Shown here: positions 2,718 through 5,469 of the stretch, piece by piece
Position numbering within the stretch: position 1 is the stretch's first letter
Layout: every line of letters begins with the position of its first letter
IMG/VR virus record: IMGVR_UViG_3300025168_000760
Coordinates: 1 to 22,098 of that record
Length of the DNA: 22,098 bases
Strand: one strand, 5' to 3'
Source of the DNA: a virus
Made by a program: the position numbers and the translations under genes
The notes under the pieces: generated by a model
Databases searched by the model: none
What the model was told of the DNA's origin: nothing
The model's input: the letters and a program-made list of their open reading frames with translations, nothing else

Positions 2718-3152
2718 ATGTCGGAAAAGAAAAAAACGATTGCTTTACAAAAGCAAAGTTATAATTCTCAACGTGCTACGGCTGTTAAGTTTGACGAAGC
2801 AAGAGCAAACAAAAACACGCCAACTGAGGTACTAGCAATCCTACCAGAAATAAGCGAAGAATATAAATCGCATACTGAGGAGTTTGATGCTACATACCAC
2901 GAGAAACACGCGAGAAGTCAAGGAAAAGCTTTTTTGAGAACTGAGGTTAAAAACTCGGATAATCTTTATAAATATGCTGAAAAGCTTAATAAGGAAATTG
3001 CTCAAAGAGGGTTAAAAGATACTGACGGATTTGTCAAGGTGTTTTATATTACTACACCTAAGTTGGTTAGTGTAAGTCAAGAGTATAAAGACTTATTTCC
3101 TAAATCTGTTATAACTCAGCAAAACAAACTAAACAAAACCGAAAAGGTTTAA
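2718..3152 (+). CDS. hypothetical protein, 144 residues
   Basis: A hydrophilic, Lys/Glu-rich protein with no recognised domain; the middle (residues 45-95) looks helical. I chose ATG 2718 because AAGGAG at 2701-2706 sits 11 nt upstream. In-frame ATGs at 2643 and 2604 would add 25 or 38 residues but lack a well-placed ribosome binding site. The gene stands alone between the divergent intergenic region and the long non-coding region. A structured RNA follows directly, so the latter may be its 3' untranslated region. Confidence 0.65.
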   Translation: MSEKKKTIALQKQSYNSQRATAVKFDEARANKNTPTEVLAILPEISEEYKSHTEEFDATYHEKHARSQGKAFLRTEVKNSDNLYKYAEKLNKEIAQRGLKDTDGFVKVFYITTPKLVSVSQEYKDLFPKSVITQQNKLNKTEKV

Positions 3153-3168
3153 TTAGTTAAATTGGTTG

Positions 3169-3192
3169 TGTGGGGTAGGTTGTCGCCTCACA
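3169..3192 (+). ncRNA. small hairpin 5' of the long rod
   Basis: TGTGGGG at 3169-3175 pairs with CCTCACA at 3186-3192; the one non-Watson-Crick position is a G-U pair in plus-strand RNA. Part of the left arm (TTGTGTGG, 3166-3173) also matches CCACACAA (3222-3229) in the long rod, so the two folds could be mutually exclusive. Confidence 0.45.
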
Positions 3193-3216
3193 TTGTACCA
3201 ATATCACGCGTAAAAC

Positions 3217-3391
3217 CTCAGCCACACAAATAACGATGAGCCACGGAGTATCGGGGGTATAACTCTGAGCTGTCCCTTGACTCACTTTTATGTTCTGCGG
3301 CAGCAGGTTATAAAATGTGTCAATGGGCTAGAAGCTCTTAGAGTTATGTACCCGTGATACTCTGTGGTTCAAGGTTATTTGTGTGGCTGAG
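3217..3391 (+). ncRNA. 175-nt rod-like structured RNA candidate
   Basis: Positions 3217-3234 pair perfectly with 3374-3391 (18 bp). After a symmetric 2x2 loop, 3237-3252 pair with 3356-3371 (14 Watson-Crick and two G-U). Next, 3253-3269 pair with 3337-3353 (13 Watson-Crick, three G-U, one G-A). After an internal loop the fold continues with CCC/GGG and TTGAC/GTCAA (3274-3281 with 3319-3327), then TTTTAT/ATAAAA (3286-3291 with 3310-3315). It ends in CTGC-GGCA-GCAG (3295-3306). Five of six imperfect positions in the second and third helices are G-U when read as plus-strand RNA and would be A-C mismatches in minus-strand RNA, which points to selection on a plus-strand transcript. I match it to no known RNA family. 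The length resembles 6S-type rods, but I see no basis to call it one. Confidence 0.7.
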
Positions 3392-3451
3392 CGTAGCGAA
3401 GCCTAACTAAAAAACCAAATTTTCAACCAAATACTTGAATTTCTAATTAGG

Positions 3452-3471
3452 AAAAGGGGCACGCCTCTTTT
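3452..3471 (+). terminator. compact intrinsic terminator
   Basis: AAAAGGGG (3452-3459), loop CACG, then CCTCTTTT (3464-3471) form an 8-bp stem with one G-U pair on the plus strand, flanked by A- and T-tracts. It would end a transcript carrying the upstream gene and the structured RNA. The A-tract on the other side could let it act on minus-strand transcription as well. Confidence 0.65.
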
Positions 3472-3603
3472 ATATGAAAAGAAGCGGACACAAAATCGTG
3501 TAATTTTTTGAGTTTTGTAACTTTTTCAACGTTTTGGCTAATTATTCCCTAAGGTTGGTTAAATTTCGGGGTTTGAAATAAAAAATTTTCGGATTTAGAG
3601 CCC

Positions 3604-3809: not shown

Positions 3810-3845
3810 TTGGCTTGTATTTAATTAAAATAGGGAGAAAATACA

Positions 3846-4151
3846 ATGGATAAATTAGGCAATATAGAGTTAGGTGGTCACGAATATAGTGTAATCATAC
3901 AAGAACTTATTTCACCGAATCCTGGTACAGATTTATATGGAAGACATGAAATAACACAGAATCAAATTCTTATCAACGAAGTGTTAACCTTAGATAGAGC
4001 TAAGGAAACGCTTATTCACGAGGTTTTACACGGTATCTTAGTCAATTCAGGACAAGAACACCCTGAAAACATTATCGACGCATTAGCAAACGGATTGTTC
4101 CAATTAGGTATAGGAGATGTATTATGGAAAAAAGTACAGAAAAAATCCTAG
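3846..4151 (+). CDS. small HExxH metallopeptidase-like protein
   Basis: This 101-residue protein carries a zinc-peptidase motif, LIHEVLHGIL, with His58, Glu59 and His62. A likely third-ligand region follows at residues 71-74 (E-H-P-E). The layout fits the ImmA/IrrE- or SprT-like 'tLlHEllHai' family common in phages. The first 50 residues would form the beta strands that precede the active-site helix. Most members are of similar size and unknown substrate; some cleave phage or host regulators, but nothing here tells which. GGGAGA lies 7 nt upstream of the ATG. It is the first gene of the rightward run, directly after the long non-coding region and the candidate promoter, so it is probably expressed early. 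Confidence 0.75.
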   Translation: MDKLGNIELGGHEYSVIIQELISPNPGTDLYGRHEITQNQILINEVLTLDRAKETLIHEVLHGILVNSGQEHPENIIDALANGLFQLGIGDVLWKKVQKKS

Positions 4152-4616: not shown

Positions 4617-4741
4617 TGGCTAAAGCTAAAAAAACAACCTCAAAAAGAGGGCGTAAGAAAAAAGCGTTAACTTTTTGGGATAAAGTAGCAAGAGGAGTAG
4701 AAAGAGTATTTTCTACTGCGTTTCCAAAGAGAGCAAAATAA
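4616..4741 (+). CDS. small basic protein, 41 residues
   Basis: This short gene exactly bridges its neighbours with TAATG overlaps on both sides, which is strong evidence that it is real. The N-terminal 17 residues (MAKAKKTTSKRGRKKKA) are almost all Lys/Arg. The rest (LTFWDKVARGVERVFSTAFP) looks like an amphipathic helix. It could bind nucleic acid or a membrane surface. It is one of several tiny lysine-rich proteins in this genome. Confidence 0.65.
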   Translation: MAKAKKTTSKRGRKKKALTFWDKVARGVERVFSTAFPKRAK

Positions 4742-5469
4742 TGGCTGGAATAAAATGGACAGATGAAGAAATAGTAATTATTACTCAATATACTAGAACA
4801 ATTAAATCTGCATTCGAACTATATCAAGAAATACGTAAAGCCGGATATAATAGAACGTATAAGGCTGTAACTAAGAAAATAGAAACAATGGGATTTAGAA
4901 AACCTTCTAGATTTAATTCTGGACATGAGATTACTATTGGATACCTAGACATTGAAGCTACGGGATTTAATGCTAATATTGATGTAATGTTATCTTGGTG
5001 TTTAAAAGGAAGAGATAATAGGAAAGTAGGAGGAGCTTGTATAACCAGAGAAGAGCTAATGTCTGAAAACCAAGATGCAAGAATAGTTGAATTGCTAGTA
5101 GAGGAAATGAATAAGTATGACGTAGTAGTTACTTACTATGGAACTAGGTTCGATATTCCTTTTATTAGGACTAGAGCCTTGTATCACGGAACTTACTTTC
5201 CAATGCATAGACAAAAATCACACAAGGACCTATACTATACAGTAAAGTCTAAGTTAAAACTGCATAGGTCTTCATTGGCAGCAGCAACAGAGTTTTTTGG
5301 AATAAATGGTAAAACGAGAGTAAAACCAGAATATTGGCAAAAAGCAAGATTCGGTGACCCTAAGTCACTGAAGTATGTTTACGAGCACAATGTTTCCGAT
5401 GTAGTGATTTTAGAAAAGCTTCATAAGAAGATAGAAGAATACGGTGCACCTACCGTTAACCCAATATAG
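4741..5469 (+). CDS. Myb/SANT-like domain fused to RNase H-fold (DEDD) 3'-5' exonuclease
   Basis: Residues 1-55 resemble a homeodomain/Myb-like unit (W6-TDEE start, then RTYKAVTKKIETMG, like RTxxAVxxK-xxxG), suggesting DNA binding. Residues 64-235 match the RNase_H_2 (YprB-like, DnaQ superfamily) exonuclease pattern: D70-I-E72 in YLDIEATG, D138 in YYGTRFDIPF, and D220 in EHNVSDVVILEKL. These give the four acidic residues for two-metal catalysis. The protein probably trims or degrades DNA or RNA ends during replication, recombination or host takeover. It is coupled to the upstream small basic gene by TAATG and lies four genes before TerL, so a role in end processing before packaging is possible but unproven. 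Confidence 0.8.
   Translation: MAGIKWTDEEIVIITQYTRTIKSAFELYQEIRKAGYNRTYKAVTKKIETMGFRKPSRFNSGHEITIGYLDIEATGFNANIDVMLSWCLKGRDNRKVGGACITREELMSENQDARIVELLVEEMNKYDVVVTYYGTRFDIPFIRTRALYHGTYFPMHRQKSHKDLYYTVKSKLKLHRSSLAAATEFFGINGKTRVKPEYWQKARFGDPKSLKYVYEHNVSDVVILEKLHKKIEEYGAPTVNPI

Follow-up and report, generated by a model that had tools for sequence, protein, structure and literature searches.

A rod-like plus-strand RNA family behind a small orphan gene of uncultured tailed phages, possibly one part of a protein-RNA cassette

A 175-nt, nearly perfect hairpin behind a small gene of an uncultured phage raises the question of whether it is a functional RNA and, if so, whether it belongs with the protein encoded directly ahead of it. 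We analysed positions 1–22,098 of the IMG/VR virus record IMGVR_UViG_3300025168_000760 (virus DNA, one strand); this whole stretch of 22,098 nt is called the window below. The record is a 22-kb fragment of a tailed phage whose portal is P22-like and whose major capsid protein is SU10-like, and deposited phages are only distant relatives. Genes run leftwards over 14–2276 and rightwards from 2604 onward, and the hairpin is found between the first rightward gene and a small metallopeptidase-like gene at 3846. The minus-strand gene at 14–1072 is glutamine amidotransferase-like (PHROG 4736, E 2×10−43), and several relatives have an ORF similar to it in size and place. For comparison, 80 relatives were fetched by the exonuclease protein (4741–5469) and 80 by the terminase.

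Folded as plus-strand RNA, positions 3217–3391 formed a single rod (−109.9 kcal/mol), far more stable than dinucleotide shuffles (mean −46.8; z=−15.4); the minus strand reached −89.6 kcal/mol. No ORF of at least 60 aa was found over these positions. The claim of an earlier note on this DNA, a rod-like structured RNA in a gene-free region, was thus borne out. Its helix layout comes close to the helices and loops of the MFE structure (Table 1), but the pairing register is partly different. Two of the G-U pairs it listed (3240–3368 and 3245–3363) are present in the MFE structure, whereas at 3257–3349, 3258–3348 and 3267–3339 the bases are G and T but the MFE register differs. The MFE structure contains seven G-U pairs (3240–3368, 3245–3363, 3253–3355, 3260–3348, 3273–3327, 3292–3309 and 3294–3307) and no A-C mismatches. 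A smaller hairpin, TTGGTTGTGTGGGG...CCTCACATTGTACCAA (3160–3200), lies between the stop codon and the rod in the window only.

Table 1. Coordinates of the rod, its parts and associated features (window positions unless a locus is named).
Feature	Position	Strand	Remarks
Rod-like RNA	3217–3391	+	175 nt, 75 pairs; supported by fold z, five homologues, covariation and 23:0 G-U:A-C
Basal helix, 5' arm	3217–3234	+	pairs with 3374–3391; sequence free, pairing kept in all homologues
Basal helix, 3' arm	3374–3391	+	pairs with 3217–3234
Helix	3217–3234/3374–3391		18 perfect pairs, then 2×2 loop; MFE
Helix	3237–3253/3355–3371		17 pairs; MFE; then G.G mismatch 3254.3354
Helix	3255–3261/3347–3353		7 pairs; MFE
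Helix	3262–3266/3340–3344		5 pairs; MFE
Helix	3267–3271/3333–3337		5 pairs; MFE
Helix	3272–3275/3325–3328		4 pairs; MFE
Helix	3277–3281/3319–3323		5 pairs; MFE
Helix	3283–3284/3316–3317		2 pairs; MFE
Helix	3286–3292/3309–3315		7 pairs; MFE
Helix	3294–3298/3303–3307		5 pairs, GGCA tip; MFE
Invariant CGGGGG	3252–3257	+	5' side of internal motif; G.U pair 3253–3355 next to G.G 3254.3354
CYCGUG	3351–3356	+	3' side of the internal G.U/G.G motif
Apical module, 5' strand GUCCCUUGAC	3272–3281	+	conserved
Apical module, 3' strand UGUCANNGGGYU	3318–3330	+	conserved; then variable bulge of 3–5 nt
Apical stem with GGYA tetraloop (3299–3302)	3294–3307	+	closing pair covaries C-G/U-A
Aligned core	3246–3362	+	all six members; used for covariance model R1
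Partner gene, 144-aa orphan protein	2718–3152	+	ATG at 2718; longest ORF from 2604; stop-to-rod gap 64 nt
A7 gene, example	L042:4053–4388		small orphan protein family
A8 gene, example	L055:2512–2877		small orphan protein family
Three-stem RNA	L055:2885–3007, L049:3908–4030, L150:3460–3583, about 20 others		no Rfam match in loci searched

The first homologue, in locus L042, is equal to the window rod in length and stability and lies at the same place; the basal helices of the two are almost unrelated in sequence, and the apical words are the same. A scan with L042's own exonuclease yielded four more rods (L213, L215, L216 and L217), giving a set of six records in four lineages with the window included. 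All six are found at the same place, are 175–182 nt long with 70–75 pairs, and have plus-strand folding energies of −101 to −114 kcal/mol and minus-strand energies of −73 to −90 kcal/mol. Identity in a sequence alignment is ~44–66% between lineages; within lineages it is 85% (L042/L216) and 96% (L213/L217). This degree of divergence, with the rod and its key motifs kept, indicates a real RNA family. The last viral pattern scan gave nine hits, of which three (L271, L273 and L275) were not rods.

Covariation in homologues had been set beforehand as a test of the RNA claim. In a MAFFT alignment read with the named structure, both sides had changed at 21 of 45 core pairs; shuffles averaged 9.9 and none of 500 reached 21. 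When the partner was slid by one column, the paired cells were halved. The MAFFT alignment was not fitted to the structure, but the structure was taken from one of its rows. Realignment with a covariance model gave 25 pairs with both-side changes (39 cells) and a score of 0.567, where shuffles scored 0.225 and slid pairings no more than 0.17; the realigned set leans toward the model by construction. The test was thus met by strong compensatory change over six loci.

We counted G-U pairs and A-C mismatches over the four lineages in a strand-symmetric alignment of the arms and found a ratio of 23:0 (binomial P about 10−7). Common descent accounts for a few of the 23 G-U pairs, and the true P is larger for that reason. 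The ratio points to a plus-strand RNA and not to a DNA palindrome. Covariance model R1 scored 92–120 bits on the plus strand and no more than 18 on the minus strand, the window rod being one of the sequences from which R1 was built. The criteria of R1 are CGGGGG/CYCGUG with the G.G mismatch, the CCCUUGAC/GUCANNGGG helix, the GGYA tip and at least 70 pairs, and the window meets them all. The G-U pair beside the G.G mismatch is invariant in all six members. The strand bias and the R1 scores support the view, put forward beforehand, that selection acted on a plus-strand RNA, and the bias and the invariant pair likewise argue against a recent DNA inverted duplication. We conclude that the rod is, close to certainly, a structured plus-strand RNA under selection.

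A feature of the DNA itself, such as a cruciform, a MITE-like element or an insertion-type inverted repeat, would be in keeping with the strong inverted repeat and with the good folding of both strands. However, 23 G-U pairs to no A-C mismatch is not equal decay, the G-U pair beside the G.G mismatch does not vary, and the rod occurs as one copy per record, at the same place in all members. We give a DNA-level explanation next to no credence; the strand asymmetry effectively refutes it.

Computation shows that the rod is conserved at three spots: the internal G.U/G.G motif, the apical helix (CCCUUGAC facing GUCANNGGG, with a variable bulge of 3–5 nt behind it) and the GGYA tip. The basal 15–18 bp are always paired and free in sequence, that is, only double-strandedness is needed there.

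We then compared the rod with known RNAs and elements. At the family gathering threshold of Rfam 15, neither the window nor loci L042, L213, L215, L216 and L217 gave a match, which agrees with the earlier note, whose author recognized no known family. At permissive settings, Rfam yielded nothing but plant miRNA models with long hairpins, whose scores fell well short of threshold (31 bits versus 245 and 30 versus 140). BLAST of the rod region against phages gave chance hits only, and no description of the rod family was found in the literature on phage structured RNAs, open-licence papers only. A pattern scan of bacterial genomes returned attC-like hairpins and GC-rich chance matches, all ruled out by fold. 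The chance finds included repeated integron attC-like hairpins in L099, L108 and L114 (Gammaproteobacteria MAG 8_bin.20). An integron attC site was rejected for the rod itself: its ends (CTCAGCC/GGCTGAG) lack the RYYYAAC/GTTRRRY core sites, and the attC-like elements of the scan share only a chance pattern with it. The rod is not an intrinsic terminator either, as no T-tract directly follows the stem in the window (3' flank CGTAGCGAAGCC) or in the other rods.

Bacterial 6S RNA is a rod-like RNA with a large single-stranded central bulge between two duplexes. The phage RNA is similarly rod-like and about 180 nt long, but none of the six rods has a large central bubble, and no bulge or mismatch exceeds about 5 nt a side. 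Promoter mimicry of the 6S kind, considered from UUGAC, was rejected, there being no bubble and no conserved −10-like part. The RNase III sites in T7 early mRNA are hairpins between early phage genes; compared with the rod, they are much shorter and lack conserved apical motifs. With its fold and motifs absent from Rfam and from the papers searched, the rod is a previously undescribed RNA family.

In five of the six loci, the rod begins 8–13 nt after the stop codon of a 112–116 aa protein of one family, termed A7. The 144-aa protein of the window matched the A7 profile over its full length with E 6×10−4, but at a probability of only 29%; from this sequence match it may be a distant A7 relative. 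We consider a functional link between the rod and the gene ahead of it likely. Another 23 distinct relatives carry a different, three-stem RNA with CGGGGGUUAGAGCNNGAC, about 10 nt after a gene of another small protein family, A8. Its CGGGGGUUAGAGCNNGAC...GUCNNGCUCUA hairpin is very conserved, with two covarying pairs, and a pseudoknot (AUCGU/ACGAU) is possible but kept only in part, with 85% of cells paired and few changes on both sides. The three-stem RNA is a second undescribed structured RNA.

In a cross-table, rods occurred with A7 (5/6) and three-stem RNAs with A8 (23/23) without any crossing, and every A7 or A8 protein met in the searched loci had its RNA. Because A7 and A8 were themselves defined from these loci, part of the concordance follows by construction; weight attaches only to the absence of crossing and of proteins lacking their RNA. 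AlphaFold models of A7 and A8 both have the order E-H-H-E-H-H in the first 70 residues. The rod-linked A7 model is of low confidence (pLDDT 72, pTM 0.41; A8, pLDDT 85), and a fold library search gave no known fold for A7 or A8. The rod-linked protein had no significant Pfam or PHROG match, and profile comparison did not link A7 with A8 (probability 0.6%).

We hypothesize that the rod is part of a phage protein-RNA cassette in which the RNA acts with or on the partner protein; this is an inference made without expression or binding data, and we hold it at somewhat less than even chances. Gene and rod RNA would be transcribed together as one two-component cassette, and the RNA might be cut out or kept as the mRNA tail. 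The partner protein could bind the rod via the conserved motifs, either forming an RNP or being restrained by the RNA. The hypothesis rests on six homologues at one locus with a gap of 8–64 nt, on the absence of crossing between A7 and A8, on a fold beyond shuffles with covariation, strand bias and the invariant G-U pair by G.G, and on the end-to-end A7 match of the window protein and the shared E-H-H-E-H-H order. Our reservations come from the weak link of the window protein, the low-confidence A7 model, the missing link between A7 and A8 and the small number of records (six, from four lineages).

Both parts are exchanged between sister phages, which suggests that the cassette serves host takeover or anti-defence and not a housekeeping step. 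More speculatively, the locus may hold an interchangeable cassette of a small early protein and its cognate RNA, with structurally unrelated RNA partners in sister phages, and thus a new two-component RNP class in phage-host conflict. In the exonuclease tree, rods need two label changes, but a single rod clade was not rejected (p-AU 0.42), which leaves no ground for asserting horizontal transfer. For a phage RNA, it is unusual to see such strong covariation in a near-perfect rod of 175 nt. The same syntenic place carries two structured RNAs that are unrelated to each other, and each has a small protein family of its own. With two RNA/protein types at one place, the partnership is directly testable by co-expressing the 112–144 aa protein and the 175-nt RNA; if an RNP forms, it would be a new kind of phage protein-RNA module.

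By analogy, the nearest known layout would be that of the type III toxin-antitoxin/AbiF-RCd22 kind (RF03085 abiF motif; PMC12373285), likewise a locus of protein gene and structured ncRNA in phages, where RNA and protein are meant for each other, as we infer for the rod. In those systems the RNA lies ahead of the gene and contains short motifs that recur; AbiF itself belongs to the Abi_2/HEPN RNases (PMC12373285). In contrast, the rod lies behind its gene as a single 175-nt structure without repeats or an Rfam match, and its partner protein belongs to no significant Pfam or PHROG family. Since position, repeats and protein family all differ, we did not file the rod there.

A long near-perfect duplex is a typical RNase III substrate. 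The rod could accordingly be a cis-acting 3' UTR element without trans function, an RNase III site and 3' exonuclease barrier that sets how much of the upstream early protein is present, perhaps under autoregulation by the protein itself. Consistent with this are the short gap of 8–13 nt between stop codon and rod in five of the six loci, a duplex length suited to RNase III, and the presence of another structured RNA and a terminator at this place in sister phages (in the three-stem loci read through, a terminator-like hairpin follows the RNA). A plain stability or cleavage hairpin, however, would need neither the invariant apical helix, GGYA tip and G.U/G.G motif nor 75 pairs. We infer that cis action is unlikely and rank it second, after the protein-RNA cassette. 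If the function were cis-acting processing, the rod would be less new, a novel form of a known kind of element.

Adenovirus VA RNA is about 160 nt long, with a long duplex stem and a conserved apical part. The rod resembles it in size, long duplex and conserved apical part, possibly a functional analogy only: VA RNA comes from a eukaryotic virus and another polymerase, no homology has been shown, and the rod has no central domain. A free trans-acting RNA of this sort, unrelated to the upstream protein, might target the host as a decoy for, or inhibitor of, its RNA polymerase, a dsRNA-binding nuclease or a defence sensor. A stable, highly double-stranded molecule with a sequence-free basal helix and conserved recognition spots would suit that role, and quite different structured RNAs at the locus in sister phages are as expected in an arms race. 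Host defence is known to sense structured phage RNAs (PMC10686824). The nearest phage RNA known to be host-sensed is the cabRNA of staphylococcal phages, which like the rod is phage-made, duplex-rich and structured; cabRNA, however, originates in coding sequence, the terS-terL genes, and is not homologous in sequence from one phage to another (PMC10686824), whereas the rod lies between genes, has conserved motifs and covaries strongly. A host-directed RNA leaves the linkage to one protein family unexplained and its target is not known; we rank it third and find it rather improbable.

In the window, an AT-rich block (3405–3515, about 105 nt) conserved in about 50 relatives starts some 14 nt downstream of the rod, and in every rod locus it follows the rod closely. 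The terminator that the earlier note had placed 60 nt after the rod did not hold up: the candidate AAAAGGGG-CACG-CCTCTTTT (about 3452–3471) is weak, was not called by the terminator scan, and lies within this block, where it is not kept as a hairpin with a T-tail. Within and just after the block, the density of DnaA-box-like sites is 14 times that elsewhere in the loci (1.46 versus 0.10 per kb), and we regard the block as a candidate replication origin. An early-promoter transcript running through the rod into the block might then be an origin primer or regulator, as the closeness of the two in all rod loci and the density of DnaA-box-like sites would allow. The three-stem RNA, however, is separated from the block by some 700 nt or more that include a terminator and ORFs on the opposite strand. 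Closeness of RNA and block is thus not conserved, and we see only a slim chance of a replication element.

At the same locus, further structured variants behind their own genes seem to be present in L012 (about 3826–4000) and, following the first rightward gene, in L009 and L053; L012 also has G5 runs next to a hairpin. Several other relatives have only a plain terminator-like hairpin at this locus.
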